From Actinomycetota bacterium (GTDB lineage: Bacteria; Actinomycetota; CADDZG01; WHSQ01), in NCBI GenBank assembly GCA_009377815.1, contig WHTI01000011.1, forward strand, positions 1 through 46,237: a stretch of DNA of 46,237 bases, in the 5' to 3' direction. Shown piece by piece: positions 8,579-37,001 of this stretch. The translations under genes were made by a program, and so were the position numbers. A model generated the notes under the pieces. That model was not told the origin of the DNA. It was given only the letters and a program-made list of their open reading frames with translations, and made no database searches. Positions within the stretch are counted from its first letter, which is position 1. Every line of letters starts with the position of its first letter.

Positions 8579-8763
8579 CTCCCACCTTCGGCCGGCGACG
8601 GTTTCGTGCCGAACATACACAAGTGGTTGTGAGATAGCTAGAGAGGCGGGTAAAGTTAGAGAAAGCCCTGGTCAATTGAGCGGATTACATATTTACTTTC
8701 CCCACGGGGTTGCCATACTCCGAGTGGGGAGTCTCGGCGGAGTGTCAGATAAGGGGAATAGAC

Positions 8764-14863: not shown

Positions 14864-14865
14864 CT

Positions 14866-18282: not shown

Positions 18283-18293
18283 ACGGAGGCCCG

Positions 18294-19661: not shown

Positions 19662-19672
19662 GAGCGGACCCC

Positions 19673-21512: not shown

Positions 21513-21518
21513 GATCAC

Positions 21519-21856: not shown

Positions 21857-23119
21857 ATGGGGAGATTGGCATTCCGTCGGGTGCTGGGGATCGCGTTGGT
21901 CGCGTCCTTGCTTGCCGTCGCGTGTGGAGGGGACGACCCGGAATCTGGCAACGCCGATGGTGGTGACGCTGGATCTACCGAACCGATAATCATCGGTGCT
22001 GCCATCGCAGAACAGGGGTGGCTGAACGCCTACGACGGTCCCAACAAGGTGTCGTTGGAATTGGCGATCGACCAGATCAACGAAGAGGGCGGCATCCTTG
22101 GCCGCCAGCTAGAGGTCGTGTATGCGGACACGAAGTCCGAGCCCGACCAGGTTGCGAACGCCGCGATCAGTGTGATCGAGCAGGGCGCGATGATCGGGGT
22201 GGAGTCGTGCGACTTCGACCTCGGAGCTCCCGCCGCTATCGAATTCTCTAACAAAGGGATTGTTAACTTCTCTGTGTGTGCGAGTTCGGTGGTCTTTGGG
22301 CCTCAGGGCATCGGTCCGCTAGCCTTCTCGAGCGGTAACTCTGCTGCCGGCTACGCCGCGGCGATCTCCGAGTGGGCGTACCAAGAGAAGGGCTGGACCG
22401 ACGCCTACATACTCGAGGACACGGTTCTCGACTACACCCACGAGATGTGCGACAGCTTCAAGAGGAGCTGGGAGGGTCAGGGAGGCACCATCGTCGGAGA
22501 GGACACCTTCCAGCAGGGCGATGAGTCAGTCGACGCGCAGATCGGGCGCATCAAGGCGCTGCCGGAGGAGCCCGACGCGATCAGGCTTTGCAGCGTCGTT
22601 CCGGGACTGGGCGCAGTGATCCGGCAGATCCGTTCCGCCGGCATCACGTCCCCGATCCTCGCCGGGTCGGAGTCGGACGGCACCTACTGGCACGAAGGGG
22701 TTCCGAACCTCAAGGACTTCTACTACACCGCTTCCGGCTCGATCTTCGGAGACGACGAGAATGCGGACATCAACGAGTTCTTTGCGAGCATCGAAGAAGC
22801 GACCGGTGAGCCGGCTGCAGATGCGGTCTCGACGGGCGGCTACATGCTCATCCAGGCGCTCAAGATTGCGGCCGAGAGGGCTGGATCCATCGAGGGTACG
22901 GCAGTCGCCGCCGAGCTAGAGAAGTTCTCAAATGAGCCTCTTCTGATCGGTGGGACCACCTACACGAGTGAGTTCCATGTTCCGCTCTGTCGTGCTCCTG
23001 CGATCCTCGAAGCCTCGGCTCCTGGAGAGGTTGCTTTCGTCACCCGCTTCCAGCAAGAGACGGTGCCTCTGCCGGAAGGCGTCGGTGGTGGGGACTATCT
23101 CTGTTCGTCGGAAGGCTAG
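21857..23119 (+). CDS. ABC transporter substrate-binding lipoprotein (branched-chain amino acid/amide type)
   Basis: A 420-residue type I periplasmic-binding-fold lipoprotein. ATG 21857 follows GGGAGGAAAG; the frame is open further upstream, but this start gives a proper signal: FRRVLGIALVASLLAVACGG, with the lipid-attachment Cys after LAVA and an acidic/glycine linker after it. The mature part follows LivJ/UrtA/AmiC-type proteins: IIIGAAIAEQGWLNAYDG, KVSLELAIDQINEEGGILGR, QLEVVYADTKS. It has six cysteines besides the lipid one (in CDFD, VCASS, EMCDS, RLCSV, PLCRA, YLCSS), enough for three disulfides. It would capture the compound degraded by the downstream operon. The transporter genes follow after 46 bp. 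Confidence 0.92.
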   Translation: MGRLAFRRVLGIALVASLLAVACGGDDPESGNADGGDAGSTEPIIIGAAIAEQGWLNAYDGPNKVSLELAIDQINEEGGILGRQLEVVYADTKSEPDQVANAAISVIEQGAMIGVESCDFDLGAPAAIEFSNKGIVNFSVCASSVVFGPQGIGPLAFSSGNSAAGYAAAISEWAYQEKGWTDAYILEDTVLDYTHEMCDSFKRSWEGQGGTIVGEDTFQQGDESVDAQIGRIKALPEEPDAIRLCSVVPGLGAVIRQIRSAGITSPILAGSESDGTYWHEGVPNLKDFYYTASGSIFGDDENADINEFFASIEEATGEPAADAVSTGGYMLIQALKIAAERAGSIEGTAVAAELEKFSNEPLLIGGTTYTSEFHVPLCRAPAILEASAPGEVAFVTRFQQETVPLPEGVGGGDYLCSSEG

Positions 23120-23165
23120 CTTCATCAGTTGAGTTATTGGTAGGGCTTTTGCCGAAAGGAAGCGG

Positions 23166-23900
23166 ATGTCGTCCAGTTTCATCGCTCGTGGTGTGCACGT
23201 CGACTTCGACGGTATCAAGGCTCTGGACGACGTTGATGTTGAGCTGCGCGAAAGGGAAGTACTCGGGCTCATAGGTCCGAACGGTGCAGGGAAGACCACT
23301 TTGGTCAACGTCCTGTCCGGCTTCCAGCGGCTCGATGAGGGTTCGATGCAGTTGAACGGAGCGAACGTGACGGGCTGGTCGCCCTACCGACTGGCCCGTC
23401 GCGGTCTCGCTCGTACATTCCAGGGCGCTCGACTATTCAAAGGACTCTCGGTCTTTGAGAACGTTGAGGTCGGCGCCCTGGGAGTTGGGGTTGGCCGCCG
23501 TGAAGCAAAGGCTCGGGCAGAATCACTTCTCTCCCTTCTCGGGCTCTACGGACAGGCGGACATGCCGGCAGATTCGCTGGCATATGGGGGCCAGCGTCGT
23601 CTCGAGATAGCGAGAGCGCTGGCCCTCAGACCTCAGTTCCTGTTGCTCGATGAACCCGCGGCTGGATTGAGCGAGCTAGAGAGCGACGAGATGATGAGCG
23701 CCATCCTCGACTTCAAGAAGGATTCCGACTGCGGTGTGCTGATCATCGAGCACGACATGCGCGTGATCATGAGCCTGTGCGATCGCGTTCATGTTCTCAA
23801 TTACGGCAAGACGATCAAAGTGGGAACACCCGCCGAAGTCAGGGCCGACGAGGGAGTCCTAACCGCTTACCTGGGCGTCGGGGGGAACCAGGATGCTTAG
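23166..23900 (+). CDS. Branched-chain-type ABC importer, ATP-binding protein (LivG-like)
   Basis: A 244-residue ATPase with Walker A GPNGAGKTTL, signature YGGQRRLEIARAL, Walker B LLLDEPAAGL, and the LivG-specific FQGARLFKGLSVFENVEVGA after the Q-loop. It hydrolyses ATP as one half of the importer motor; the partner is the LivF-like protein, whose start overlaps this gene by eight bases (23893-23900). The ATG is preceded by GAAAGGAAG. In the usual operon the permeases come first; here the order is binding protein, G, F, H, M. Confidence 0.93.
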   Translation: MSSSFIARGVHVDFDGIKALDDVDVELREREVLGLIGPNGAGKTTLVNVLSGFQRLDEGSMQLNGANVTGWSPYRLARRGLARTFQGARLFKGLSVFENVEVGALGVGVGRREAKARAESLLSLLGLYGQADMPADSLAYGGQRRLEIARALALRPQFLLLDEPAAGLSELESDEMMSAILDFKKDSDCGVLIIEHDMRVIMSLCDRVHVLNYGKTIKVGTPAEVRADEGVLTAYLGVGGNQDA

Positions 23901-24633
23901 TCTCACCGGCATCTTCGTCAACTATGGGCACGTCGCGGCCGTGCGAGGCGTGTCTCTAGAGGTGAATGAAGGAGAGGTCGTCGGGCTCATCGGGCCCAAC
24001 GGGGCGGGAAAGACGACCCTGCTCTCGGCGATCGCCGGAGTGATCCGCCCGGAGCGTGGAGACATCCAACTCCTCGGAGAGACCCTCCTCGGCAAAGCGC
24101 CCGAGAAGATCGTTCCGATGGGCATCTCCCTCGTCCCCGAGGGTCGAGAGATCTTCGGAACGTTGACGGTTGAGGAGAATCTCCGGTTGGGCGCGACCAT
24201 CAGGCGCCGAGACCCGGAGGTTGCGGGCGACATCGAGTCGATGATGGAACGATTCCCGATCCTCGGAAAGTACCGCGGCACCCATGCCGGAGCGTTGTCG
24301 GGAGGGGAGCAACAGCAACTGGCGATCGCACGTGCTCTTCTGGCAAACCCGAAGCTCCTACTGCTCGATGAGCCATCACTGGGCCTGGCCCCCAAGCTGG
24401 TTGACCAGGTCTTCGACATCGTGGGGCAACTCAAGGAAGACGGAGTAACGGTCCTACTGGTTGAGCAGAACGCTCGCCGGACCCTCGAATTCGCCGACCG
24501 CACGTACGTATTGCGAAGTGGGGAGATCCGTCTGTCTGGGACGAAGAAGGAACTTTCTTCGATGGACAACGCCGATTTTGAGCACGCGTTCCTCGGGTTC
24601 CATCGTGGCGAGAGACAGGGAGAGTCCCGTTGA
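23893..24633 (+). CDS. Branched-chain-type ABC importer, ATP-binding protein (LivF-like)
   Basis: A 246-residue ATPase with GPNGAGKTTLL, the LivF-like SLVPEGREIFGTLTVEENL, signature LSGGEQQQLAIARALL and Walker B LLLDEPSLGLAP. Together with the LivG-like protein it forms the heterodimeric motor of a five-component importer for hydrophobic amino acids, amides, urea or aromatic acids. It starts at ATG 23893 within the previous gene and overlaps the next gene by TTGA (24630-24633), which implies coupled translation. No residues needed for ATP hydrolysis are missing. Confidence 0.94.
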   Translation: MLSLTGIFVNYGHVAAVRGVSLEVNEGEVVGLIGPNGAGKTTLLSAIAGVIRPERGDIQLLGETLLGKAPEKIVPMGISLVPEGREIFGTLTVEENLRLGATIRRRDPEVAGDIESMMERFPILGKYRGTHAGALSGGEQQQLAIARALLANPKLLLLDEPSLGLAPKLVDQVFDIVGQLKEDGVTVLLVEQNARRTLEFADRTYVLRSGEIRLSGTKKELSSMDNADFEHAFLGFHRGERQGESR

Positions 24634-25514
24634 GAACGGTCATCCAGAGCGCGATCGACATCCTGAGTCTCGGAAGCCTCTACGCCCTGCTGGCTCTTGG
24701 TGTTGCTCTCGTGTTCGGGATCATGAGATTCATCAACTTCGCTCACGGGGAGCTACTCATGGTGGGGGGGTACTCGCTCTTCCTCGCACGCGAATTGCCC
24801 TTCGTCTTCATGATCCTGGTCTGCATCGCCACGGTGGTGCTCACGGCTCTGCTCTTCGAACGGGTTGCATTCCGTCCGATCAGAGGAGCCAACCCTGCTA
24901 CCCAGCTGGTGACTTCGTTCGCCCTCAGCTTCTTGTTGCAGAACCTGGCGATGCTCACCCTTGGCCCACGAGCCAAGTCCGTCGGGCTGCCGACGGTCCT
25001 CACAGAGCAGTTCACGGTCGGGGGTCTGCGGATCGCGAAGCTCGATATCTTGACCGTTGTGCTGGGCGTCGTCTTGATGGCGTCCCTGGGTTTCTTCCTC
25101 AAGAGGTCAACGCTTGGGGTTCAGATGCGAGCGTCCGCCGAGAACTTCGAAATGGCTCGACTGGTCGGGGTCAAGGCAAATACCGTGATCGCCTCGGCTT
25201 TTGCTATCAGTGGACTGCTGGCCGCTTCGGCGGCGATCATCCTCGTTGCAAAGACCGGCACGATCACTCCTGGTCTTGGACTCAAGCCCGTCGTCATCGC
25301 ATTCGTCGCCACCATCATGGGTGGCCTGGGCAGCCTCTCTGGAGCCGCTCTCGGCGGATTCGTGCTGAGTTTCCTGTCGGTGACCCTTCAGACCCTCTTG
25401 CCGCTTGACCTCCGACCGTTCCGCGACGCTTTCGTCTTCGGATCCGTCGTACTGATCTTCCTGCTGAGGCCCCAAGGGCTGATCGTCGTGCGCAGCATCA
25501 AGGAACGAGTATGA
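24630..25514 (+). CDS. Branched-chain-type ABC importer, permease (LivH-like)
   Basis: A 294-residue inner-membrane permease starting at TTG 24630. Its N terminus (SLGSLYALLALGVALVFGIM, then RFINFAHGELLMVGGY) is the classic LivH motif. Several hydrophobic spans follow, including PATQLVTSFALSFLLQNLAM and the cytoplasmic coupling loop (MRASAENFEMARLVGVK), which contacts the ATPases. It pairs with the LivM-like permease, overlapping its start by ATGA at 25511-25514. Substrate range is set mainly by the binding protein, so none can be named. Confidence 0.93.
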   Translation: MRTVIQSAIDILSLGSLYALLALGVALVFGIMRFINFAHGELLMVGGYSLFLARELPFVFMILVCIATVVLTALLFERVAFRPIRGANPATQLVTSFALSFLLQNLAMLTLGPRAKSVGLPTVLTEQFTVGGLRIAKLDILTVVLGVVLMASLGFFLKRSTLGVQMRASAENFEMARLVGVKANTVIASAFAISGLLAASAAIILVAKTGTITPGLGLKPVVIAFVATIMGGLGSLSGAALGGFVLSFLSVTLQTLLPLDLRPFRDAFVFGSVVLIFLLRPQGLIVVRSIKERV

Positions 25515-26608
25515 AGCACTCGAATTCACCCTTGCTTAGTTGGATAGGTCGTCGGGTGTGGCCGCTCGTCGCTTTGATCGTGCCCCTCGGAGCGATCGCT
25601 CTTTTCGGAGGAACCGGCTCGATCGTCTTCCAGCGTGAAGTGACCACGATGATGATGTACATGGTGGTTGTCGTCGGTTACTACATCTTCGTCGGCAACT
25701 CCGGAGTAACATCCTTCGGGCACATCAGTTTCATGATCATCGGCGCGTACACGGCCGCCCTGTTGACGCTCACCGTCCAGCAGAAGATCATCCTGCTGCC
25801 CGACCTTCCCTCGTTCTTGGCGGACGTCCACTTCGGTTTCGTCGGCGGCGCGCTCTTGGGGGCGGTGGTTGCGGCAGTCTTCGCCGCGGTGATCGCGCTG
25901 CCGATCAATCGTTTGACGGGGATCTCCTTGTCGCTGGCGATGTTTGCGATCCTTCTGACCGTCAACGTGATCGTCAGTCACTGGACATCGGTGACTCGCG
26001 GAGTCACGTCTATGTTCGGGGTTCCTCAATCGACAACCCTGGGGTCTGCGTTCGTGTTTGCAAGTATCACTATCGTGGCGGCCTGGATGTTTCAGTGGAC
26101 GCGGGTCGGTTTGAGGATGAGAGCGGCACGAGAGGATGAGCCGGCGGCTCGAGCCGTTGGCATCAGCATCCCTCGTGACCGCGCTATCGCCTTCATCCTC
26201 AGTGGTTTCTTCGTGGGTCTGGGCGGAGCGCTCTTCGCACAGTTCCTTGGGGCGTTCAACTCCGACACGTTCTATATCTCGACCACACTTCTCACGATAG
26301 CGATGCTCGTCATCGGGGGGTTCAAGAGTCTTTCCGGAGCAGTGGTGGGGACGGTTTTCGTCTCCGCTCTCGATGCGGGTCTCCGCAGGATGGAGGATGG
26401 GTTTGCACTAGGGCCGCTCGAAGTCGGCTCTCGTCCCGGTCTATCCGCCGTTGGGCTCGCTCTCTGCATGCTGCTGGTGTTGGTCTTCCGCTCTGAGGGT
26501 TTAACCGGCTCCCGCGAGATCCCCTCGCTGTGGCGGCTTCGGCGAAACGAAACCCCGCCGGCGGACACGCTGCCAGCACCTGCAACCGATCGAAAGGATG
26601 TTTCATGA
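25511..26608 (+). CDS. Branched-chain-type ABC importer, permease (LivM-like)
   Basis: A 365-residue membrane permease with ~8-10 hydrophobic spans. Landmarks are YYIFVGNSGVTSFGHISFM (the LivM G.SLGH motif), the coupling loop RMRAAREDEPAARAVGI, SGFFVGLGGALFAQFLGAF and LVIGGFKSLSGAVVG. The last ~30 residues are a polar, Arg/Pro-rich cytoplasmic tail. It completes the five-part importer. Its stop overlaps the start of the molybdenum hydroxylase FAD subunit (ATGA, 26605-26608), directly coupling uptake to the first catabolic enzyme. Confidence 0.92.
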   Translation: MKHSNSPLLSWIGRRVWPLVALIVPLGAIALFGGTGSIVFQREVTTMMMYMVVVVGYYIFVGNSGVTSFGHISFMIIGAYTAALLTLTVQQKIILLPDLPSFLADVHFGFVGGALLGAVVAAVFAAVIALPINRLTGISLSLAMFAILLTVNVIVSHWTSVTRGVTSMFGVPQSTTLGSAFVFASITIVAAWMFQWTRVGLRMRAAREDEPAARAVGISIPRDRAIAFILSGFFVGLGGALFAQFLGAFNSDTFYISTTLLTIAMLVIGGFKSLSGAVVGTVFVSALDAGLRRMEDGFALGPLEVGSRPGLSAVGLALCMLLVLVFRSEGLTGSREIPSLWRLRRNETPPADTLPAPATDRKDVS

Positions 26609-27477
26609 AGCCCGCGCGCTTCGAGTACCTCGCCCCGACATCTGTCGAGGAGGCGGTGTCCCTCCTGGTCGAAGGGGGTGAGGACGCGAAGCTGCTTGCG
26701 GGGGGCCAGAGCCTCGTTCCGCTGATGAACCTTCGCCTCGCCCAGCCTAGTGTCCTTATCGACCTGAACAAGGTCGAAGGAATCTCGTCGATCACCGAGT
26801 CCGAGGATGCGGTGGTCATCGGATCGATGGCGCGACACCGGGCCGTTGCGGAATCGGAGGTGGTGCGGAGATTTCTACCGCTGCTGGCCGAGTCCGCGGG
26901 GCACATCGGCTACCCGGCGATCCGTGCTCGGGGAACCATCGGAGGAAGCATCGCTCACGCGGATCCTGTATCCGAGTTCCCTTGCGCGTGCCTCTGCCTC
27001 CACGCCGAGTTCGTCCTCACCGGCCCCGCAGGGACGAGGCAGGTCAGGGCAGAAGATTTCTTCGTCTCATATCTAACAACCGCGCTTAGCCCCGACGAGA
27101 TCCTCACAGAGGTGCGTTTCCCCAAGCCCTCTCCCGGTCTCGGGTGGGGATTCCTTGAACTGGCGAGAAAGACAGGTGACTTCGCGCTGGCGGCGGTCGC
27201 CGCCACGGTCGCGTTGTCGCCCGATGGCACCTGTTCTGAGGCCTCCATCGCGGTCGCCGGAGGCGGCGATAGGCCCCTACGGATGGTCGAGGCGGAGACG
27301 ATGCTGAAGGGAAACCAGGGTGACGACGTCATCGCCCGGGCGGCGACGGCGGCTGCGACCTCGTCGAATCCTCCTTCGGACATCCATTCAAGCGGTGACT
27401 TCCGACGACAGATGATCGAGGTTCTGACCAGACGAGTGCTCACGGCGGCGTGGGGCAACGCACGGAGGGGTGAATGA
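26605..27477 (+). CDS. Molybdenum hydroxylase, FAD-binding medium subunit (CoxM/CutM-like)
   Basis: A 290-residue subunit of the xanthine-oxidase family. The FAD site shows AKLLAGGQSLVPLMNLRLA near residue 33 and the AxxGTIGGSIAHADP motif (RARGTIGGSIAHADP) near 110; the C-terminal CO-dehydrogenase flavoprotein domain follows. It passes electrons from the [2Fe-2S] small subunit to the final acceptor. The ATG at 26605 overlaps the importer permease, and the frame's earlier open stretch is not used because it lies inside that gene. It overlaps the small subunit gene by ATGA (27474-27477). The M-S-L gene order is that of CoxMSL operons. Confidence 0.93.
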   Translation: MKPARFEYLAPTSVEEAVSLLVEGGEDAKLLAGGQSLVPLMNLRLAQPSVLIDLNKVEGISSITESEDAVVIGSMARHRAVAESEVVRRFLPLLAESAGHIGYPAIRARGTIGGSIAHADPVSEFPCACLCLHAEFVLTGPAGTRQVRAEDFFVSYLTTALSPDEILTEVRFPKPSPGLGWGFLELARKTGDFALAAVAATVALSPDGTCSEASIAVAGGGDRPLRMVEAETMLKGNQGDDVIARAATAAATSSNPPSDIHSSGDFRRQMIEVLTRRVLTAAWGNARRGE

Positions 27478-27965
27478 GCAACACATCCGAGGTAAGGATT
27501 CAGATAAACGGCGAGGTTTTCGAGAGGCATGTCGAACCTCGCAAACTCTTGAGCGACTTCATCCGAGAGGATGCGGCGCTCACCGGGACGCACGTCGGAT
27601 GCGAGCACGGCGCCTGTGGCGCCTGCACCGTATTGCTCGACGGCGAACCTGTGCGTTCGTGCCTGATGTTTGCGGCACAGGCTGACGGGATGGTGCTCGA
27701 GACCGTCGAGTCGTTGGCGTCTACGCCGGCGAACCTTCACCCCATCCAGGAGGCATTCTGGGAGAAGCATGGCCTCCAGTGCGGCTTCTGTACCCCGGGG
27801 ATGTTGCTCACAACGAAGGCTTTGCTCGAGAAGAATCCAGATCCTTCCGAGGACGAGATCCGTCAAGCGATCGCCGGCAACATCTGCCGGTGCACAGGTT
27901 ACGTGTTCATAGTCGATGCGATCAAAGACGCTGCGGCGCGATGCTCGAGTGAGGGGGATCGATGA
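27474..27965 (+). CDS. Molybdenum hydroxylase, [2Fe-2S] small subunit (CoxS/CutS-like)
   Basis: A 163-residue iron-sulfur subunit with both clusters complete: plant-type ferredoxin ligands Cys43, Cys48, Cys51 and Cys63 (GCEHGACGACTVLLDG...RSC), and the helical-bundle cluster Cys103, Cys106, Cys138 and Cys140 (QCGFCTPGM and NICRCTGY). It relays electrons from the molybdenum centre in the large subunit to FAD in the medium subunit. No N-terminal signal is visible, so the complex is cytoplasmic. It overlaps the large-subunit gene by four bases at 27962-27965. Confidence 0.95.
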   Translation: MSNTSEVRIQINGEVFERHVEPRKLLSDFIREDAALTGTHVGCEHGACGACTVLLDGEPVRSCLMFAAQADGMVLETVESLASTPANLHPIQEAFWEKHGLQCGFCTPGMLLTTKALLEKNPDPSEDEIRQAIAGNICRCTGYVFIVDAIKDAAARCSSEGDR

Positions 27966-30325
27966 CGCAATCGCTGGCCCCCCGTTTGCTCGGCGCGAAG
28001 GTAAAGAGGGTCGAAGATCCGCGCTTCCTACTTGGCAAGGCTCGGTACATAGACGACATGGTGCGTCCCGGGATGCTCCATGCGGCTTTCTTACGTTCTC
28101 CGATTCCGCACGGCAACGTCAGATCCGTAGATGTCGGACCGGCACTTGCGATGGAGAGGGTACGCGCGGCTCTGACCGGGAGGGACATAGCAACCAAGGT
28201 CAAGCCCATCGTTTGCGACTCGACGTTCGAGGGGTTCAAGAGCTCCAACTATCACGCGATCGCTCTCGACAAGGTCAGGTACGTGGGAGAGGCGCTCGCG
28301 ATAGTGGCGGCGGATACCCGGTACATCGCGGAGGACGCCATCGAGATGATCGAGTTCGATATCGACGAACTTGGGCCAGTCGCCTCGATCGCTGCAGCTA
28401 CGCGTGAGGGAGCACCTCTGCTTCACGAGCATTGGGGAGACAACTTCTTCATCGAGGATCTTCTGGAAGCAGGAGATGTGGAGTCCGCGTTCCGCGACGC
28501 TCACGGAGTCTTCGAGATCAACGTATCCAATCAACGGCACTCGGGCATCCCTCTCGAAACCAGGGGAGTGATCGCAGAGTTCGATTCCGACGGTGTCCTC
28601 ACCATGTGGAGCGCCACGCAGATCCCCCACATGGTCCGCACGGGAATGGCAGATTGCCTGGAAGTGCCAGAACACAAGATCAGGGTGATCGCCCCGGACG
28701 TTGGTGGTGGTTTCGGTCCCAAGGGCCATCTCTTTCCTGAGGAGCTCGCGGTGTGTCAGCTCGCCATCGAAACCGGTCGTCCGATCAAGTGGATCGAGGA
28801 CCGGCGCGAGCACATGCTGTCAACGTTCCACGCTCGGGAGCACTATCACCGTGTCAAGGTCGCCTATACGGAAGAAGGAGTCGTAACCGCTCTCGACGCA
28901 ACCATCGAGGTCGATTGTGGGGCGTACTCGATCTATCCGTGGACGGCCGCAATGGACGTGGAGATGGGGCTCGTGATGCTTCCTGGCCCGTACAAGATCC
29001 GAAACTTCCGGTGTGAAGCCCAGAGCGTGGCCACGAACAAGTGTCCCTTCGGCGCGTATCGCGGAGTAGCGCGAACCGCGGTCTGCTTCTCGATCGAACG
29101 CATCATGGATCAGGTCGCCAACAAGGTTGGGTTGGACCCGGTCGAGGTCCGTCGCCGCAACTTGATCCGCTCTGATGAGTTTCCCTACATGTCGATCACC
29201 GGCATGGAGTACGACTCAGGAAGCCTCATCGAGTCGCTCGACAAGGTATGTGACGAGGCCGACTACAAAGCGATGAGGCAGTTCCAGGAGGAGGCTCGTA
29301 GCGAGGGGCGGATGGTAGGCATCGGTGTGTCTGTTTTCACCGAACAGACCGCGCCGCCTGCCGACAAGGGCCTGCCACTCAACTTCAGCTGGGATGCAGC
29401 AACGGTTCGAATGGATCCATCTGGCAAGGTCGTCGTCCAAGTCGGAACGCATTCGCACGGCCAAGGCCATGAGACGACCCTGGCGCAGATCGTCGCCGAC
29501 GAGCTCGAGCTTCCACTTGCGGACGTGCGCATCGCTTTCGGTGACACCGAGTCCACGCCCAACGGCATTGGTACCTTCGCCAGCAGGTCCGCCGTCGTTG
29601 CGGGATCGGCCTCGTACCTAGCGGCCGTTTCCGTCAAGGAGAACCTGACAGAACGAGCTGCCCATCTCCTCGAGGCAAGTGTGGAGGATGTGGAGGTAAA
29701 GGCGGGACGCATCTCCGTCAAGGGGGCGCCGGAGCAGAGTGTTTCGATTGCGGAAGTTGCCCGTATCTCCTATCACCATCCAGAACTGCTCGATCCTTCG
29801 ATGGAGCCGCTCCTCGAGGCGGTCGCGACCTACAACGCGGGACCCGGAACGTACGCGAACTCGGCCCAGATCGCACTGATCGAGGTCGATGCGGAGACCG
29901 GCAAGTTCAAGATCCTGCGATATCTCGTGGTCGAGGACTGCGGACAGATGATCAATCCAACGATCGTCGATGGGCAGGTCCACGGGGGCATCGCTCAGGG
30001 ACTGGGCGGGGCCCTCTTCGAGGAATTGATCTACGACGATGAGGGACAGCTCCTGACCACGACCTTTCTCGACTACCTGATGCCGGGAGCGACCGATATC
30101 CCCAACATCGAGGTCTCTCACCTGGTCACCCCCTCGGCCTTCGTGCCGAACGGGATCAAGGGTATGGGCGAAGGGGGCGCGGTGGCGCCCGGGGCGGTTC
30201 TTGCCTGCGCCATCGAGGATGCGATCAAGCCTATCGGAGAGGTATTCGTCGATCGGACCCCATTGACGCCGGAGAGGGTGGTGCGATTCATCGAAGCGGC
30301 ATCCTCCGGCGGAGGGGTCGAGTGA
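27962..30325 (+). CDS. Molybdenum hydroxylase, large catalytic subunit (CoxL-family, AYRG type)
   Basis: A 787-residue molybdopterin-cytosine-dinucleotide-type subunit. VIAPDVGGGFGPKG near residue 245 and GIKGMGEGGAVAPGAV, with catalytic Glu737, are intact. The active-site loop is AYRGVAR at 365-371, not the AYxCSFR of true CO dehydrogenase, so it lacks the cysteine that holds copper. It belongs with 'form II' homologues, which include hydroxylases of purines, nicotinate, quinoline, isoquinoline and aldehydes. It would insert water-derived oxygen next to a ring nitrogen or oxidise an aldehyde. GTGA at 30322-30325 couples it to HyuA, suggesting its lactam/imide-like product is the hydantoinase substrate. 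Confidence 0.93.
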   Translation: MTQSLAPRLLGAKVKRVEDPRFLLGKARYIDDMVRPGMLHAAFLRSPIPHGNVRSVDVGPALAMERVRAALTGRDIATKVKPIVCDSTFEGFKSSNYHAIALDKVRYVGEALAIVAADTRYIAEDAIEMIEFDIDELGPVASIAAATREGAPLLHEHWGDNFFIEDLLEAGDVESAFRDAHGVFEINVSNQRHSGIPLETRGVIAEFDSDGVLTMWSATQIPHMVRTGMADCLEVPEHKIRVIAPDVGGGFGPKGHLFPEELAVCQLAIETGRPIKWIEDRREHMLSTFHAREHYHRVKVAYTEEGVVTALDATIEVDCGAYSIYPWTAAMDVEMGLVMLPGPYKIRNFRCEAQSVATNKCPFGAYRGVARTAVCFSIERIMDQVANKVGLDPVEVRRRNLIRSDEFPYMSITGMEYDSGSLIESLDKVCDEADYKAMRQFQEEARSEGRMVGIGVSVFTEQTAPPADKGLPLNFSWDAATVRMDPSGKVVVQVGTHSHGQGHETTLAQIVADELELPLADVRIAFGDTESTPNGIGTFASRSAVVAGSASYLAAVSVKENLTERAAHLLEASVEDVEVKAGRISVKGAPEQSVSIAEVARISYHHPELLDPSMEPLLEAVATYNAGPGTYANSAQIALIEVDAETGKFKILRYLVVEDCGQMINPTIVDGQVHGGIAQGLGGALFEELIYDDEGQLLTTTFLDYLMPGATDIPNIEVSHLVTPSAFVPNGIKGMGEGGAVAPGAVLACAIEDAIKPIGEVFVDRTPLTPERVVRFIEAASSGGGVE

Positions 30326-32397
30326 GTGAGGCGAGATACGCGGTCGGCGTGGACGTCGGGGGGACGTTCACAGACCTCGTTGCCCTCACCGCCGACGGCC
30401 GCACCCTCGTGGCCAAGGTTCCGTCGACTCCCGGAGATCAGTCTGTCGGTGTAGTCAACGGACTGCAGGACCTCGCCGGACGGGAGAAGCTTGATCTACC
30501 GGAGTTCTTGGGCTCCTGTGGGTATCTGGTCCATGGGACCACGGTGGCCACCAACATCATGTTGGAGTTCAACGGCGCCAGAACCGGAGTCATCACCACC
30601 AAAGGCTTCCGGGACATCATCGACATCCGGCGGAACTACAAAGAGACGGACTTCGACATCCGCCTCCCACCCCCCACCCCCATCGCTCCTCGACGCGTCA
30701 GGAAAGCGGTTGAGGAGAGGGTGGACTACGCCGGTGGCGTGCTTATCCCACTGAACGAGGACGATGTTGCTCGTGCCGTCGATGAACTGAAGACCTTCGA
30801 CATCGAAAGCGTCGCGGTTTGTTACCTGTTCTCTTTCCTCAACCCTTCTCACGAACTCCGCACGCGGGAGATCATCCTGGAGATCGATCCGACGATGCAC
30901 GTCTCGTTGTCACATGAGGTTCTGCCTCGGGTTCGAGAGTTCGAACGGTTCAGCACGACCCTGGTGGACGCCTATGTCACGCCGGGTCTGAGCCGGTACC
31001 TGCATCAACTCGAAGACAAGCTGCGTGGATTGAACTTCTCAGGTGACCTCTTCGTGATGGCCGCCAATGGAGGCATGGTGTCGGTCGAGCAGGGATCGCG
31101 GCAGGGAGTGCAGCTCGTCCTCAGTGGCCCTGCGGGAGGGATCGTTGCCGGGGTCGAGGTAGGCAAGATCACCGGTATCAAGGACATCATCACTATCGAC
31201 ATGGGGGGCACCAGCTTCGATACGTGCTTGATCAGTGACTGGACCCCAACCGTCGCCGGAGACTCCTGGCTCAGCAGGTACAGGATCGCGATCCCCACCC
31301 TCGACATCCATCCGATCGGCGCGGGTGGCGGAAGTATCGCCTCGGTCGACGAAGCCGGGCGACTCCGGGTTGGTCCCGAGTCTGCGGGGGCGATCCCCGG
31401 TCCCGCTTGCTACGGGCGCGGCGGACATCTGCCCGCGGTGACCGACGCAGACGTCTGTCTGGGCTTGATCGGGACGTCCTCCTTCTTGGGCGGAGCGATG
31501 AAGCTCGATCGGGATGCGGCCCTCGAGGCGGTGGAGACCCACGTCGCCAAGGGCCTTGGTCTCGATGTGACCGAGGCCGCCGCCGGCATCGTACGGATGG
31601 TCAACAACAACATGGCGAATGGGATCCGCGAGGTGTCGATGAAGCGAGGGCACGATCCTCGTGACTTTGCCCTTGTCGCCTTTGGGGGAGCGGGGCCGGT
31701 CCATGCCGGGCGCCTCGCCGAGCAGCTCGGGGTCCAGACGGTGCTTATCCCGCGGGGGCAGGCATCGGTCTTGTCTGCTTTCGGCGACGTGCTGTCGGAC
31801 GTTCGTATCTCGAAGGCGCGCGGCTTCTACGCACGGAGCTCGAGGGTTGACGTCGCCGAGCTCAACCGCTTACTCGAGGCGACGGTGGCCGACGCGATGG
31901 CGGAGATAGAGGGCATCAGCGTGGAGGGAACCCGCATCGACGTGTCGTTCGAGATGCATTACAAGCTTCAGACCCACGAGATCATGGTTCCCGCAGACGC
32001 CGAGGGCGGCCACATGACTGAGGCCGGCTTCGCCGCGACGCTCGATCGTTTCCATGACATCCACGAACGCCTGTACACGTTCAAGAAGCCTGGGCAAGAG
32101 GTCGAGCTCCTGGGCATCCAAGTGGATCTCTGGGGCTTACGAACGAGGCCATCGATCTCCACGGGAGCAACGTCATCCAACGAGGACCCCTATGTCGGTA
32201 CCAGGGCCGTGTACTTCGAGGAACTTGGTGGGTTCAAAGACGACACTCCCGTCGTGGCCGGGCTCCGCCTTGAGGTCGGGGCGGGGATCCACGGTCCGGC
32301 CATCGTCGAGGAGCCACATACGACCATCGTCGTCGCACCGAGCATGTCTCTGTCGGTCACCGATGAGCTCGTCTACACACTGGCGGTGGAGGTATGA
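30322..32397 (+). CDS. Hydantoinase/oxoprolinase family, A subunit (HyuA-like)
   Basis: A 691-residue protein beginning GTG 30322. It has the ASKHA-type ATP site: VGVDVGGTFTDLVAL at residues 8-22, LVHGTTVATNIMLE, LSGPAGGIVAGVEVGK and DIITIDMGGTSFDTCLI. These parts match the ATP-binding subunit of N-methylhydantoinase, 5-oxoprolinase, caprolactamase and acetone/acetophenone carboxylases, which activate a carbonyl oxygen by phosphorylation and then cleave a lactam/imide or add carboxylate. The last ~180 residues are the usual C-terminal domain. It overlaps the short HyuB-like gene by ATGA. Lactam or cyclic imide hydrolysis is the best guess from context. Confidence 0.93.
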   Translation: MSEARYAVGVDVGGTFTDLVALTADGRTLVAKVPSTPGDQSVGVVNGLQDLAGREKLDLPEFLGSCGYLVHGTTVATNIMLEFNGARTGVITTKGFRDIIDIRRNYKETDFDIRLPPPTPIAPRRVRKAVEERVDYAGGVLIPLNEDDVARAVDELKTFDIESVAVCYLFSFLNPSHELRTREIILEIDPTMHVSLSHEVLPRVREFERFSTTLVDAYVTPGLSRYLHQLEDKLRGLNFSGDLFVMAANGGMVSVEQGSRQGVQLVLSGPAGGIVAGVEVGKITGIKDIITIDMGGTSFDTCLISDWTPTVAGDSWLSRYRIAIPTLDIHPIGAGGGSIASVDEAGRLRVGPESAGAIPGPACYGRGGHLPAVTDADVCLGLIGTSSFLGGAMKLDRDAALEAVETHVAKGLGLDVTEAAAGIVRMVNNNMANGIREVSMKRGHDPRDFALVAFGGAGPVHAGRLAEQLGVQTVLIPRGQASVLSAFGDVLSDVRISKARGFYARSSRVDVAELNRLLEATVADAMAEIEGISVEGTRIDVSFEMHYKLQTHEIMVPADAEGGHMTEAGFAATLDRFHDIHERLYTFKKPGQEVELLGIQVDLWGLRTRPSISTGATSSNEDPYVGTRAVYFEELGGFKDDTPVVAGLRLEVGAGIHGPAIVEEPHTTIVVAPSMSLSVTDELVYTLAVEV

Positions 32398-33488
32398 GGT
32401 CCGATCTGCCCTACTTCAAGAACGCGCTCTACACCTCGTTGCTCGACGCCCACCGGCATCTCTACAAGGTGTTGCAGTCTCATGGCCTCGGAGACCGGAC
32501 GCATCTGTCGGTCGATGTCGTGAACAAAGAGGGACGCGTCGAGGTTTCGTCGGTCGCTACAGAGTTGAGCAATGCTCGAGCTGTGGTCGCCTCGATCCAG
32601 AATGCGGTTCCGCCCCTTGAGCCCGGCGACGTCGTTGTCACCAACGATCCGTACTCTGGTTCCCAGCATCTCCAGGATCATTGGATCGTGGCCCCGGTTG
32701 CGAAGGGGACAGCGGCCGGTGGCTACATCAGTGTGCATGCGCACCTTGCCGATGTAGGCGGTCGCAACCTTGGGAATCTTTATCCGGGGGCCAGGGACAT
32801 CTGGCAGGAAGGCGTGCGAACGACCCCGGTCAGACTGTTCCGCAAAGGCGAACTCGACCGAGATGTCCTTGAGCTCATCAAGTTGAACAGCCGCATGCCG
32901 CTCGTCATGGAGAACGACCTGAGAGAGATGGCAACAACCGCGAGCGAACTCGCCTCTCAGGTGGGAGCATCGGATCCGTCCCTATTGGCAGATCTGCGAT
33001 CGCAGTCGAAGGGTGTGTTCGCCCGACCGTTCGATGGCGCCGAGGGCCGAACTACGACCAAACGAGGGACGATCCACTCGTGCCAGGGCTCGGACGCAAC
33101 CGTAGTTCTTGAGACGAGGGTTGAGAATGGGGCTTTGGTCGTCGACCTCACCGGGTCGTCGGATCAGGCAGAGCCGGGGTTCTTCAACTCCACTATCGCA
33201 AACACGCAGTCGTTCCTCGCCGATGTGCTTGCCAATCGTCTCTCGGGGGTCTTCTCGTCGGATGTCCTCGAGGCGCTCGATGTGAGAGCAGCCGAGGCCT
33301 CGGTGCTCAATTGCAGTTTCCCGCTTCCGGTGGGCTGGTCTCCCTACGGGCCCAGAAAGGTGGTCACGTCTCTCTTCCAGAGCGCGTTACGCGAGCTGGG
33401 GATCGGCGAGGACTACCAGGTCTTTGAAAGTGACTGGAGACCACCCGTTCACATCGAGGGCTGTCGGGAGACCGAGTGCCCTTTCTGA
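32394..33488 (+). CDS. Short HyuB-like protein (hydantoinase B/oxoprolinase family, lacks C-terminal third)
   Basis: A 364-residue protein clearly related to HyuB but divergent and short. It shares VTNDPYSGSQHLQDHW, HAHLADVGG, YPGARDIWQEGVRTTPVRLF, and DLTGSSDQAEPGFFN with the two full-length HyuB proteins downstream (584 and 581 residues), in the same order, and then stops after about 360 residues. There is no trace of the missing ~200-residue part in another frame between here and the next start at 33505, so this looks like a stable short form rather than a fresh truncation. It is coupled to HyuA by ATGA. It may be a third subunit, as in multi-subunit carboxylases of this superfamily. Confidence 0.85.
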   Translation: MRSDLPYFKNALYTSLLDAHRHLYKVLQSHGLGDRTHLSVDVVNKEGRVEVSSVATELSNARAVVASIQNAVPPLEPGDVVVTNDPYSGSQHLQDHWIVAPVAKGTAAGGYISVHAHLADVGGRNLGNLYPGARDIWQEGVRTTPVRLFRKGELDRDVLELIKLNSRMPLVMENDLREMATTASELASQVGASDPSLLADLRSQSKGVFARPFDGAEGRTTTKRGTIHSCQGSDATVVLETRVENGALVVDLTGSSDQAEPGFFNSTIANTQSFLADVLANRLSGVFSSDVLEALDVRAAEASVLNCSFPLPVGWSPYGPRKVVTSLFQSALRELGIGEDYQVFESDWRPPVHIEGCRETECPF

Positions 33489-33504
33489 GCGTCAACGGAG
33501 GATC

Positions 33505-35259
33505 ATGAAAAAGCAGGTCGATGCGATCACCAAGCAGGTGATCGCCGACTCGCTCGAAGCGATCTGTCGAGAGATGAGCAGGGTGGTAGAGCGAACATCG
33601 GTCCATCCGCTGTTCCAAGAGCTGCACGACTACTCGACCGGGATCTTCTACTTCGACGGCACCGAGGTGCATCTCGTAGCGAGAGCAACAGCTTTGCCTG
33701 CTCATATCTTCGGGTCCTTGTTGGCGGTGCGAGCGCTCGTCGAAGAGTTCGCCGGCGACATCAACGATGGGGACATGTTCCTCCTGAACGACCCGTACTA
33801 CGGAGGGAGCCATCAAGCCGACTTCACGATGATGCGAGCCGTTAGCTTGGACGACAGAAGCATGATCTTCCCCTCGGTTAGAGCCCACATGTCGGACTTC
33901 GGCGGTGTGGTTCCGGGGGGATACAACCCCGACGCTAGAGATATCTGGCAGGAGGGTTACCGGATCCCTCCGGTCCGGCTACACGAGGCTGGCGAACTCC
34001 GCTCAGACGTATGGAACCTCGTGCTTGCCAACTCCAGGCTGGGCGACACCTTCGAGGGAGACATGCTTGCCATCGTCGGGGGATGCAACGTTGGGGCGCG
34101 CGAGGTCGGCCGGCTGATCGAGAAGTACGAGCCCCAAGGGGTAGCCAACGGGATCACCTACATCCTCAACTACGCAGCCGAACGTTTCCGGGCAGAGGTC
34201 TCCCGGTGGCCGGATGGCGTGTACACGGGGGAACGGTTCCTCGATCACGACTCGGCGGGCAACCGCGACCTGAAAGTGGCAGCCGCCGTGACCGTCGATG
34301 GGGACCGGTTGAGCATCGATCTCAGTGGTTCTTCTCCTCAATCACCCGGATACATCAGCAGCGTCCCCGGGACCACCATTTCGAATGCGATGTTGTCGGT
34401 GTGCGTGGTGCTTCCGGACGACATCCCACCGAACTCGGGGGCGTTGAGCCAGATCGAAGTCATCGCCCCCGAGGGCTCGGTCGTGAATCCACTCGCTCCC
34501 GCTCCAGTGATGTTCAGCACTACGGCGATCGGTTACGAGGTTGCGGATGCAGTAATGAAGGCGTTCGAGGGGATCGCTCCTGAGCGAGTGGGAGAACCCG
34601 GCCTTGGATTCTGCCTATGCACGACGTTCGGCAAGGACGCTCGCTTCGACGACGACCTGTACTTCACTCTCGACTTCGGGAGCAGTCTTGTTTCGGCCGG
34701 TGGCGCGTACGGGACCGATGGTTGGGGAGCGTGGCCCGCATCCGTGTCGGCCTTGGTTCTGGCCAACGTCGAGATGCAGGAACTCCAGTACCCCCTTACC
34801 TTCGATATCTACGAATACGCCGACAACGCGTGTGGAGCGGGCAGGTGGCGAGGAGTTCCCGGTTTCTTCATGCAACGAAGCGTCGGAGGGCAGCACCCCG
34901 CGTACGTGAACCTTACCGAAGAGGGTGACCGGCATCCGATGCCGGGCTACGTGGGTGGGCACGCGGGGGCCAGTAGCTACGCGATCCTTCGTCCCGGGAC
35001 CGATCGCGCCGAACGCATCACGGAGTCGGTGGCCGAGGCAGAGCTCATGCCCGGTGAATCGCTGCTCACATTCAAGGGCGGAGGCGGTGGTTGGGGGTCG
35101 CCCCTCGAGCGGGAGCCGGCGTTGGTGAGAGACGACGTGCTCGACGGATACGTGAGCGTTGAGATCGCTCGTGACGTTTACGGAGTGGTGCTGATCGCAG
35201 ACAGTGATGGGAAGCTCGAGGTCGATGGGCAAGGCACAGAGGCGCTGAGGTCGGCGTGA
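33505..35259 (+). CDS. Hydantoinase/oxoprolinase family, B subunit (HyuB-like), tandem copy 1
   Basis: A 584-residue full-length HyuB from ATG 33505, with ACGGAGG upstream (16 bases after the short HyuB-like stop). Motifs are VLVARATALPAHIFGS-like core, LLNDPYYGGSHQADFTM, RAHMSDFGGVVPGGYNPDAR, DIWQEGYRIPPVRLHEAGEL, HDSAGNRDLKVA, PLAPAPVMFSTTAIGYEVAD and the glycine-rich C terminus FKGGGGGWGSPLEREP. HyuB performs the hydrolysis or carboxyl-transfer half of the ATP-dependent reaction together with HyuA. It is followed by a close paralogue with a four-base overlap (35256-35259). Confidence 0.94.
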   Translation: MKKQVDAITKQVIADSLEAICREMSRVVERTSVHPLFQELHDYSTGIFYFDGTEVHLVARATALPAHIFGSLLAVRALVEEFAGDINDGDMFLLNDPYYGGSHQADFTMMRAVSLDDRSMIFPSVRAHMSDFGGVVPGGYNPDARDIWQEGYRIPPVRLHEAGELRSDVWNLVLANSRLGDTFEGDMLAIVGGCNVGAREVGRLIEKYEPQGVANGITYILNYAAERFRAEVSRWPDGVYTGERFLDHDSAGNRDLKVAAAVTVDGDRLSIDLSGSSPQSPGYISSVPGTTISNAMLSVCVVLPDDIPPNSGALSQIEVIAPEGSVVNPLAPAPVMFSTTAIGYEVADAVMKAFEGIAPERVGEPGLGFCLCTTFGKDARFDDDLYFTLDFGSSLVSAGGAYGTDGWGAWPASVSALVLANVEMQELQYPLTFDIYEYADNACGAGRWRGVPGFFMQRSVGGQHPAYVNLTEEGDRHPMPGYVGGHAGASSYAILRPGTDRAERITESVAEAELMPGESLLTFKGGGGGWGSPLEREPALVRDDVLDGYVSVEIARDVYGVVLIADSDGKLEVDGQGTEALRSA

Positions 35260-37001
35260 TAAGCGCGATTACCAAACAAGTGATCGCCGACTCACTCGAG
35301 GCTATCTCTCGAGAGATGAGCCGGGTGGTGGAACGAACCGCCGTTCATCCTCTCTTTCAGGAAGTCCACGACTACTCGACTGGGATCTTCCTCTTCGATG
35401 GGACCGAGGTCAGCCTTGTGGCGCGAGCAACGGCGCTTCCCGCGCACATCTTCGGATCGTTGCTTGCTGTTCAAGCCCTAGTAGATGTCTTCGAGGGGGA
35501 TATGAACGACGGGGACGTATTCCTCCTGAACGATCCATACCTAGGCGGGAGCCACCAAGCGGACTTCACGATGATGAGGGTCGTGCGGCTGAGCGACTCC
35601 TCGATGGTTTTCCCCTCAGTTCGGGCCCACATGTCGGACTTCGGCGGCGTGGTACCGGGCGGCTACAACCCCGATGCCCGTGATGTCTGGCAGGAGGGCT
35701 ACAGGATCCCGCCGATCCGGCTTTACGAGAAGGGTGAGTTGAGGGAAGAGATCTGGGATCTCATTCTCGCGAACACCCGCCTAGGCGAGACTCTGAAAGG
35801 AGACCTCCTAGCGATCGTCGGTGGATGCAACGTCGGCGGGCGCGAGATCACCAGGTTGATCGACAAGTACAGCGCAGATGGTGTGCACCAAGGGATGAGT
35901 TACATCCTCGAGTACGCGGCGGCACGTTTCAGAACCGAGGTGTCCCGCTGGCCAGATGGTGTGTACCGAGGCGAGCGCATCCTGGACCACGACTCTGCCG
36001 GTAATCGAGATCTGAAGGTCGCAGCCAAGGTAACCGTAGCCGGAGACCGCCTGACCATCGACTTGTCAGGCTCTTCACCGCAGTCTCCCGGCTACGTCAG
36101 CAGCGTGCCTGGGACCTCGATCTCGAACGCGCTCCTACCCGTCCTCGCCGTTCTGCCCGATGACATCCCTCCAAATTCCGGGATCTTGAACCAAGTCGAG
36201 GTCATCGCTCCTGAAGGATCGGTCGTCAACCCCCTGGCTCCGGCGCCTGTGATGTTCAGCACGACCGCCATCGGATACGAGGTGGCCGACGCGGTGATGA
36301 AAGCTTTCGAAGGCATCACTCCCGAACGGGTGGGAGAAGTAGGGCTCGGCTACTGCTTGTGCACGACGTTCGGCAAGGACTCGAGGTTTGATGACGAGCT
36401 GTACTTCACCATCGAGTACGGGAATGCGATGTGCTCGGCCGGCGGCACTTCGGGCACCGACGGCTGGGGCGCCTGGCCGGCGACCGTTTCCGCCTTGATC
36501 ATGGCCACCATCGAGACCCAGGAGTTGCAGTTCCCGATGTTCTACGAGACCTACGAGTACGCAGATGGATCCTGCGGCGCCGGACGCTGGCGCGGTGTGC
36601 CGAGTTTCGTCATGCGCCGGACGGTGGCCGGGGACCATCCCGCGTTCGTGAATCTGACCCAAGAGGGTGCCAGGAACCCGCTGCCCGGCTACGTTGGTGG
36701 TGCGCCGGGCGCCACGAGTTATGCGGTGCTTCGGCCCGGGACTCCAGAAGAAGAGGTGATCACTGAGTCCGTCGCCGAGGCCGAGCTTCGTCCCGGAGAG
36801 ACCCTCTTCACCTTCAAGGGAGGCGGTGGTGGATGGGGTTCTCCACAAGAGCGAGATCCCGAGGCGGTGCTCGAGGACGTGTTTGATTCGTATGTGTCGC
36901 CCGAGGAGGCCAAGGAGCTGTACAAGGTCGCTCTCCGTGAGGGTGAGACTGGGCGCCTCGAGGTCGATGAGAGAGCCACCCAGGGTCTTCGGAGCGCCTA
37001 G
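35256..37001 (+). CDS. Hydantoinase/oxoprolinase family, B subunit (HyuB-like), tandem copy 2
   Basis: A 581-residue paralogue of the previous gene, alignable almost without gaps over its full length (ITKQVIADSLEAISREMSRV, LNDPYLGGSHQADFTMMR, FKGGGGGWGSPQERDP). The nucleotide sequences differ widely at third positions, so the duplication is not recent. Differences cluster in the stretch 180-220 residues in and in the segment around YETYEYADGSCGAG. Two full B subunits with one A subunit suggest either alternative complexes of different specificity or a heteromeric B pair. GTG 35256 overlaps copy 1. The stop shares CTAG (36998-37001) with the convergent reductase gene, so this is the last gene of the 21857-37001 run. 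Confidence 0.94.
   Translation: MISAITKQVIADSLEAISREMSRVVERTAVHPLFQEVHDYSTGIFLFDGTEVSLVARATALPAHIFGSLLAVQALVDVFEGDMNDGDVFLLNDPYLGGSHQADFTMMRVVRLSDSSMVFPSVRAHMSDFGGVVPGGYNPDARDVWQEGYRIPPIRLYEKGELREEIWDLILANTRLGETLKGDLLAIVGGCNVGGREITRLIDKYSADGVHQGMSYILEYAAARFRTEVSRWPDGVYRGERILDHDSAGNRDLKVAAKVTVAGDRLTIDLSGSSPQSPGYVSSVPGTSISNALLPVLAVLPDDIPPNSGILNQVEVIAPEGSVVNPLAPAPVMFSTTAIGYEVADAVMKAFEGITPERVGEVGLGYCLCTTFGKDSRFDDELYFTIEYGNAMCSAGGTSGTDGWGAWPATVSALIMATIETQELQFPMFYETYEYADGSCGAGRWRGVPSFVMRRTVAGDHPAFVNLTQEGARNPLPGYVGGAPGATSYAVLRPGTPEEEVITESVAEAELRPGETLFTFKGGGGGWGSPQERDPEAVLEDVFDSYVSPEEAKELYKVALREGETGRLEVDERATQGLRSA

Follow-up and report, generated by a model that had tools for sequence, protein, structure and literature searches.

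Here we describe a run of twelve genes at positions 21857-37001 of a 46,237-nucleotide stretch of DNA from an Actinomycetota bacterium (contig WHTI01000011.1), the whole of which is referred to below as the window. The genes all lie on the + strand and encode, in order, a Liv-type importer, a CoxMSL-type molybdenum (Mo) hydroxylase and a set of HyuA and HyuB proteins, the subunits of ATP-dependent lactamases and hydantoinases (Table 1). This gene series, from the binding protein through HyuB2, had been recognised in an earlier reading of the bare sequence, hereafter the original prediction, and was reproduced in full, with family assignments confirmed by Pfam for 12 of the 12 genes in a scan that covered 38 window proteins. 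With moderate confidence, we interpret the run as a catabolic operon for the import of an N-heterocycle, its oxidation beside the ring nitrogen and ATP-dependent opening of the ring.

Table 1. Genes of the run and the two genes that border it (window positions; E, expectation value of the Pfam match; aa, amino acids; OYE, old yellow enzyme)
Feature	Position	Strand	Evidence and remarks
Amidohydrolase	20322..21518	-	Amidohydro_1 E 7e-13; separated from the run by a 338-bp intergenic stretch
Substrate-binding lipoprotein, branched-chain amino acid/amide type	21857..23119	+	Peripla_BP_6 E 2e-43
LivG-type ATPase	23166..23900	+	ABC_tran E 2e-31, BCA_ABC_TP_C
LivF-type ATPase	23893..24633	+	ABC_tran E 3e-33
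LivH-type permease	24630..25514	+	BPD_transp_2 E 6e-35; TTG start
LivM-type permease	25511..26608	+	BPD_transp_2 E 7e-29
CoxM-type FAD subunit	26605..27477	+	FAD_binding_5 E 2e-48, CO_deh_flav_C E 2e-17
CoxS-type 2x[2Fe-2S] subunit	27474..27965	+	Fer2_2 E 2e-33, Fer2 E 7e-09
CoxL-type Mo-cofactor subunit	27962..30325	+	MoCoBD_2 E 2e-87, MoCoBD_1 E 7e-77
HyuA, ATP-binding (kinase) subunit, 691 aa	30322..32397	+	Hydantoinase_A E 4e-91; GTG start
Short HyuB, 364 aa	32394..33488	+	Hydantoinase_B, profile 8-344 of 519
Full HyuB1, 584 aa	33505..35259	+	Hydantoinase_B, profile 1-519 of 519, E 2e-127 (scanned from 33481)
Full HyuB2, 581 aa	35256..37001	+	Hydantoinase_B E 8e-130; GTG start
OYE/2,4-dienoyl-CoA-reductase-type flavoenzyme	36998..39031	-	Oxidored_FMN E 1e-62; 4-bp overlap with the run at the stops

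A packed operon

The run is a real, tightly packed operon. Its junctions measure, in order, +46, -8, seven of -4, +16 and -4 bp, so that eight of the eleven are 4-bp overlaps, exactly as counted in the original prediction; the 16-bp gap after short HyuB is set by the in-frame ATG at 33505, where HyuB1 starts. Third-position GC content is 0.69-0.77 across all twelve genes, and most of them have a purine-rich stretch ahead of the start. The run is bordered by a divergent amidohydrolase gene on the 5' side and a convergent OYE-type gene on the 3' side. Because the same 4-base overlaps are found elsewhere in the window (40426/40429, 41511/41514, 12146/12149 and 13691/13694), we regard them as ordinary operon packing here. 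Pattern scans of the run returned 2 promoter-like sites against 2.9 expected from shuffles, and 7 terminator-like sites against 9.4; with no excess of either kind, the scans speak neither for nor against a break within the run. The tetranucleotide profile of the run correlates with stretches of contigs C207, C52 and C271 at 0.97-0.98 and with C43 and C234 at 0.94. Horizontal arrival of the run was rejected since this profile fits its own genome, in what is a weak test, as a stretch from a related genome (L042) also reaches 0.94. When the 16S of this genome is compared with plasmid-borne 16S copies, the ten best rows are actinobacterial, the top one at 84.5% over 96%, and one further record falls in the 90-95% identity band over an unspecified length; the genome probably represents a deep actinobacterial lineage.

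Importer, molybdenum hydroxylase and lactamase

The importer comprises a complete LivKHMGF set of five Pfam-confirmed components. Uptake of branched-chain amino acids was considered and rejected, with NCBIfam scores of 131 against 379 for the LivH model and 50 against 477 for the binding protein. The binding protein has one strong paralogue in its own genome, at contig C331 (E 5e-68; the next is 2e-12), and this paralogue lies within a run of HyuA-HyuB-SBP-LivG-LivF-LivH-LivM (SBP, substrate-binding protein) around which no Cox match was found in the 20 kb examined.

The three Cox subunits have the domain make-up of the xanthine dehydrogenase family, including Ald_Xan_dh_C, with every domain above its cut-off. 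Among 42 distinct PDB sequences matched, quinoline 2-oxidoreductase ranks first for CoxL (624 bits), with the CO dehydrogenases at 537 bits or less. The alignment with that enzyme (QorL, 1t3q) extends over 774 residues and takes in the AYRGV and GMGE segments; CoxL GMGEGG aligns with GMGES, and its Glu is presumably the catalytic one. We know of no lactamase associated with Qor. The active-site loop of form I CO dehydrogenase is AYxCSFR, with a Cys, and CO oxidation by such an enzyme was rejected for the window, where the CoxL loop reads AYRGVAR without Cys and the CO dehydrogenase model scores 574 bits against 991. As a separate observation, the window's own genome (G000) has 14 MoCoBD_2 matches, that is, CoxL-type genes, against 0 to 6 in the 23 other genomes of its class; their contigs are C160, C207, C52, C271, C43, C234 and C349.

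HyuA contains DVGGTFTD, DMGGT and GAIPGP, corresponding to the ATP motifs DxGGTxTD, DxGGT and GxxPGP printed for the lactamase family (PMC8453981). Its nearest solved structure is 6yra_A, the caprolactamase A chain (listed as 5-oxoprolinase), followed by N-methylhydantoinase. HyuB1 and HyuB2 both retain the equivalents of all four CapB metal ligands (Asp41, His99, Asp102 and His124), positions at which mutation abolished caprolactamase activity. The two are 76% identical, and a dN (nonsynonymous divergence) of 0.18 with a dS (synonymous divergence) of 1.89, near saturation, points to an old tandem duplication with both copies seemingly constrained. Lengths of 691, 584 and 581 aa fit those of known hydrolases (690-696 and 581-583 aa, PMC8453981). 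The window set thus has the domain make-up, subunit lengths and ATP and metal motifs of CapAB; CapAB, however, is one pair encoded B-A (PMC8453981), whereas the window order is A-short B-B-B. Assignment as caprolactamase was rejected, the NCBIfam CapA and CapB models scoring 626.5 and 340.4 bits against 1000 each.

Short HyuB is divergent and lacks the later part of the family profile, where 9 of the 15 pocket residues fall (CapB numbering, PMC8453981). It retains the equivalents of His99, Asp102 and His124, their columns being taken from an alignment with CapB, and has a His in the presumed Asp41 column, which, here as for the full HyuBs, was read from the conserved D of a second alignment, one that does not include CapB. 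Across the 24 class genomes there were 19 Hydantoinase_B matches, of which three fall in open frames shorter than 450 aa: short HyuB itself (a 373-aa frame) and two frames in genome G013, one of 437 aa (profile 80-519) and one of 242 aa that abuts a contig end (profile 1-117). The two G013 frames could be fragments of a single gene. Short HyuB is the sole one of its form among the 19. A wider phylum sample yielded six other matches at E <=1e-25, 31-35% identical and all in frames of at least 521 aa. A recently broken gene was set aside, though not disproved, given the normal third-position GC content of short HyuB (0.72) and the 4-bp overlap at its start. Its predicted structure (pLDDT, the per-residue confidence score, of 45 from four sequences) was not used, and no anti-phage model matched either short HyuB or HyuA.

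Where the Hyd branch is characterised by two genes, A and B (PMC5214803), the window has A plus three B-type genes, and the extra B genes are a departure by addition from the two-gene lactamase or hydantoinase. HyuB1 and HyuB2 probably serve as alternative beta subunits or combine in a heteromer, and short HyuB is probably an accessory, beta-like subunit that has been stably retained. The additional gene also raises the alternative that the Hyu set is no lactamase and is instead ketone-carboxylase-like, of the Apc type, with short HyuB as its extra subunit; at 364 aa it recalls the 34-kDa Apc epsilon subunit, in size only (PMC5214803). The other subunits have hydrolase-like lengths, however, Pfam finds the run to encode neither a gamma subunit nor another ATP-binding subunit, HyuA reaches no more than 342.5 bits with any Apc model (cut-off 1500), and short HyuB matched the caprolactamase B model only. 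We consider the Apc alternative very improbable, and treat the set below as an ATP-dependent lactamase.

Recurrence of the gene pairs

HyuA gave 16 matches in nine of the 24 class genomes. In four of the 16 (the window, G000:C43, G001:C194 and G003:C146) a CoxL match immediately precedes it on the same strand, against a rough chance expectation of ~0.03, calculated from the 58 CoxL matches at a density of about one gene per kilobase. Because three of the four form one group in both the CoxL and HyuA trees, the count amounts to two events. That group, which we call type-B, has CoxM-CoxS-CoxL-HyuA-HyuB followed by an FdrA-like gene and AllG in three of three loci (L039:171-12241 in G000:C43, L066:4746-16748 in G001:C194 and L067:3716-15202 in G003:C146); FdrA-like is the name we presume for a gene with Pfam CoA-ligase and CoA-binding domains. 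An AMP-binding gene lies upstream in L039 and L066, and AllH is present in L039. The GC content of C43 and C234 is 0.665-0.667, against about 0.61; the type-B copy in the window's own genome could be a binning error, yet the same cluster occurs in two related genomes.

The gene content of the type-B cluster suggests a route for cyclic ureides with carbamoyl phosphate as its end product. Transferred to the window, the corresponding reading would have the Mo enzyme oxidise or desulfurise an imidazole, pyrimidine or thiohydantoin, and HyuAB open a hydantoin-like ring to an N-carbamoyl compound. The FdrA-like gene and AllG (oxamate carbamoyltransferase subunit family) of type-B clusters in three genomes fit carbamoyl intermediates. 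Elsewhere in the window there are genes for a RutB/biuret-hydrolase-like isochorismatase and a RutC-like RidA, neither of which reaches its cut-off. In E. coli, too, molybdenum hydroxylase genes stand next to one for a hydantoinase, an earlier case likened here by gene names: the region is xdhABC-ygeW-ygeX-ygeY-ygeZ-yqeA, and we take its hydantoinase to be of the ATP-independent amidohydrolase type. Its xdhABC region is tabulated with phenyl-hydantoinase, carbamoyl transferase and carbamate kinase genes (PMC2276186), which also fits a ureide. By Pfam, however, the window run has no AllFGH or carbamoylase gene, and type-B CoxL and HyuA fall in other clades than those of the window, so that we hold a cyclic ureide or thiohydantoin route to be improbable here. 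An ergothioneine route with a molybdenum desulfurase was also considered and rejected; a single literature search listed no relevant paper.

To return to the CoxL-HyuA pair itself, when CoxL and HyuA were joined as one query against 72,556 plasmids, there were 1789 matching records, four of which cover at least 80% of the query at one place: Rhodococcus sp. ZPP, two Pseudosulfitobacter and Sagittula stellata. In Rhodococcus sp. ZPP, CoxL and HyuA each read as two pieces in tblastn and may be broken, and this record was left out of the trees and of the count of separate origins. In the other three records, which are Roseobacter plasmids (L064:160-17974, L065 and L092), the genes for the Mo subunit, HyuA and HyuB follow one another with 4-bp overlaps, close to a gene annotated as 6-hydroxynicotinate reductase. 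Liv-type importer genes are full in L064 and L065, and the third stretch, L092, ends at the binding protein; two 'amino acid synthesis' family genes and UPF0280 are present as well. Like the window, the Roseobacters have a Liv-type importer, Mo-hydroxylase, HyuA and HyuB within 18 kb, with 4-bp overlaps. They differ in a Mo subunit that is only 26-27% identical and has the iron-sulfur domain in the same protein, in an importer on the opposite strand, in a single HyuB and in the extra reductase, Rieske and UPF0280 genes. The make-up of the Roseobacter cluster suggests a nicotinate-type route in which an ATP-dependent lactamase takes part.

Trees were built from 45 CoxL rows and 21 HyuA rows, with the Roseobacters represented by L064 and L065. 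In CoxL and HyuA trees alike, the type-B sequences make up one 100/100 clade and the Roseobacter sequences another, and neither includes a window row. The placement of window, type-B and Roseobacter sequences in different clades of both trees suggests separate origins, and the CoxL-HyuA adjacency probably arose three times; the alternative is one very old origin with many losses.

Related pairings were also found. On a Thermomicrobium roseum plasmid (L090:8609-19384), CoxMSL is followed by an ABC (ATP-binding cassette) importer and PxpB, PxpC and PxpA; its CoxL, at 44.6%, is the closest to the window's by identity among the matches listed, while two others score higher in bits. The plasmid resembles the window in this CoxL, in having an importer and in an ATP-dependent type of lactamase; it differs in that the importer is of another type and PxpABC is stated to be unlike the caprolactamase CapAB (PMC8453981). 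None of the other loci examined has PxpABC beside CoxL, although no systematic search was made. Liv-type importer genes lie near CoxMSL, with no HyuAB in view, on the plasmid stretches L088, L089 and L094. Additionally, a lactonase-like gene lies between CoxS and CoxL in six (L011, L013, L014, L015, L016 and L025) of 16 named genome loci, themselves 16 of the 19 fetched, and in L089 and L095, where it is annotated as N-acyl homoserine lactonase family; these clusters are proteobacterial.

The original prediction had proposed a search for the same gene order in other genomes. CoxL-HyuA, HyuAB-Liv and Liv-CoxMSL do recur as pairs, but no second copy of the twelve-gene set was found. The window run looks like the union of two pairings that exist apart, CoxMSL-Hyu and Hyu-Liv.

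Proposed pathway and its alternatives

From the gene content, gene order, motifs and recurring pairings described above, we infer the catalytic steps, their order and the class of substrate. The Liv-type importer would take up a small N-heterocycle, and CoxMSL would place a water-derived oxygen on the carbon beside the ring nitrogen, giving a lactam, imide or cyclic ureide. HyuA would then use ATP to phosphorylate the lactim oxygen, and the metal site of HyuB would hydrolyse the ring open. Several observations speak for this catabolic route: the operon packing sits between divergent and convergent neighbours; CoxL is nearest, among solved structures, to an N-heterocycle hydroxylase; the ATP motifs of HyuA and the CapB-type metal ligands of HyuB1 and HyuB2 are intact; the CoxL-HyuA adjacency recurs (4/16 in the class, 4/1789 plasmid records) in different clades; the binding protein's only strong paralogue belongs to the HyuAB-SBP-LivGFHM run of the same genome; and the T. 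roseum CoxMSL adjoins an ABC importer and PxpABC. The uptake-hydroxylate-hydrolyse scheme of the original prediction therefore stands as regards its modules, which are real and recur in pairs, whereas its substrate and order of steps are still conjectural.

A number of findings weigh against this interpretation. The twelve-gene set was found once only, in an assembly split into 485 contigs, and the T. roseum case rests on one record. Among 19 named CoxL genome loci, with unequal flanks, HyuAB was found in L009 alone, ~4 kb off and on the other strand. The window CoxL sits on an end branch of 0.71 with no well-supported neighbours in the tree, and no CoxL of more than 45% identity was found among the matches with E <=1e-180 in 99 further related genomes, in a peptide-pattern scan of genome contigs or among the plasmid matches listed. 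Likewise, 395 other genomes of the phylum sample held no HyuB1 relative at E 1e-120 or better. Finally, the top NCBIfam model for all three Cox subunits is a glyceraldehyde dehydrogenase, below cut-off in each case (684 against 790 for the alpha model with CoxL, for which no curated enzyme model reaches its cut-off), and CoxMSL may on that account act on an aldehyde instead.

The original prediction had held that independent occurrence of the modules would count against it, and this is in part what we find: 12 of the 16 class HyuA matches have no adjoining CoxL match, two of them (G003:C62 and G023:C44) at loci where the contig ends just upstream, and most of the 58 CoxL matches have no adjoining HyuA. 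That so many homologues stand apart in related genomes would agree with three unrelated functions merely sharing a transcript. The pairwise associations recur across lineages, however, and the junctions are tightly overlapped, which makes such chance company highly improbable.

The order of the steps could also be reversed, with a lactam, hydantoin or imide being imported and opened by HyuAB first, and the Mo enzyme later oxidising an aldehyde or a ring product. The HyuAB and Liv importer genes at C331, with no Cox nearby, show that importer and lactamase can form a unit, and the glyceraldehyde dehydrogenase scores just given agree with a late oxidation. Furthermore, the tree places the window HyuA in a group of five rows (99/97), among them those of Azoarcus and Paracoccus, whose HyuBA genes adjoin permeases annotated for cytosine, purines or allantoin; this suggests that intact cyclic ureides may be taken up. 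Among solved structures, however, CoxL is matched best by an N-heterocycle hydroxylase, and the Cox-then-Hyu gene order recurs, although reaction order need not match gene order. We regard the reversed order as unlikely, and continue to favour oxidation before ring opening.

The original prediction also knew of no described pathway with this set of genes. In that form the statement lacks support, since proposed HyuAB-type opening of the 2-oxoindoleacetate ring is in print (PMC8453981, PMC5214803). The hydantoinase-like IaaCE is proposed to hydrolyse that ring with ATP, in a cluster induced by indoleacetate (PMC8453981), and 2-oxoindoleacetyl-CoA gamma-lactamases cluster within the hydrolase branch (PMC5214803). 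iaaD is described as encoding a truncated, non-functional protein, and IaaM as a binding protein (PMC8360864). The anaerobic indoleacetate (iaa) cluster of Aromatoleum resembles the window in a HyuAB-family enzyme that is proposed to open an oxidised N-heterocycle and in binding-protein uptake; it adds CoA ligase, mutase, CoA transferase and benzylmalonyl-CoA dehydrogenase. The oxidation preceding IaaCE may be catalysed by a molybdenum hydroxylase. Going by the gene letters, iaaD may be flanked by iaaC and iaaE and could, if it is HyuB-like, occupy a position like that of short HyuB, which has HyuA on one side and HyuB1 on the other. Of the 38 window proteins scanned with Pfam, the only one to resemble any of these four additional iaa enzymes is an acyl-CoA dehydrogenase at 39230, whose gene adjoins 2-oxoacid dehydrogenase genes. 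Searches of the open-licence literature listed no paper in which a molybdenum hydroxylase is described together with HyuAB; PMC4809877 gives names only, in a table of small RNA targets.

As for the surroundings of the run, the divergent amidohydrolase resembles imidazolonepropionase and various other amidohydrolases only weakly, with scores that fall well short of the curated cut-offs, and may possibly belong to the same regulon. The OYE-type gene is excluded from the run by its strand; it scores 561 bits with the mycofactocin OYE 2 model (cut-off 793), and a role as N-methylproline demethylase was rejected, its 28% identity to a gene annotated HpbA being insufficient. Immediately 5' of the run, at 18186-20179, a Rieske ring-hydroxylating oxygenase is followed by a CoxG-like protein. 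Positions 11145-16365 hold a packed + strand set, which we read as another catabolic operon, of an LLM (luciferase-like monooxygenase) flavin/F420 oxidoreductase, a LeuA/homocitrate-synthase-like protein, the RutC-like RidA, an amidohydrolase and an aldehyde dehydrogenase. At 6001-8620, a formamidase-like gene lies opposite a short-chain dehydrogenase/reductase (SDR) gene and the RutB/biuret-hydrolase-like isochorismatase, with formamidase and isochorismatase below curated NCBIfam cut-offs. At 2297-3414, an alanine dehydrogenase N-terminal domain occurs in a 173-aa frame overlapped by a second frame, which could reflect a gene that is broken or frame-shifted, or else a fault in the assembly.

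What stands out most at the locus is the inequality of its HyuB proteins, together with a hint that similar molybdenum hydroxylases have been paired with different lactamases. We offer, as a tentative and rather doubtful generalisation, that a family of catabolic operons may share a fixed core, the quinoline-oxidoreductase-like hydroxylase, and exchange the hydrolase that opens the ring: HyuAB in the window, type-B clusters and Roseobacters, the unrelated PxpABC in T. roseum and lactonase-like proteins in others. The window lactamase would then consist of one kinase and three unequal B proteins, among them a short form in which most of the metal site is retained. If these interpretations are correct, adjacency of a Mo-hydroxylase and an ATP-dependent lactamase would be a marker of N-heterocycle catabolism in uncultured bacteria, and annotations such as 'CO dehydrogenase' and 'hydantoinase' would become testable pairs. 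Also, a lactamase with unequal B subunits would allow the role of the second half of HyuB to be asked.

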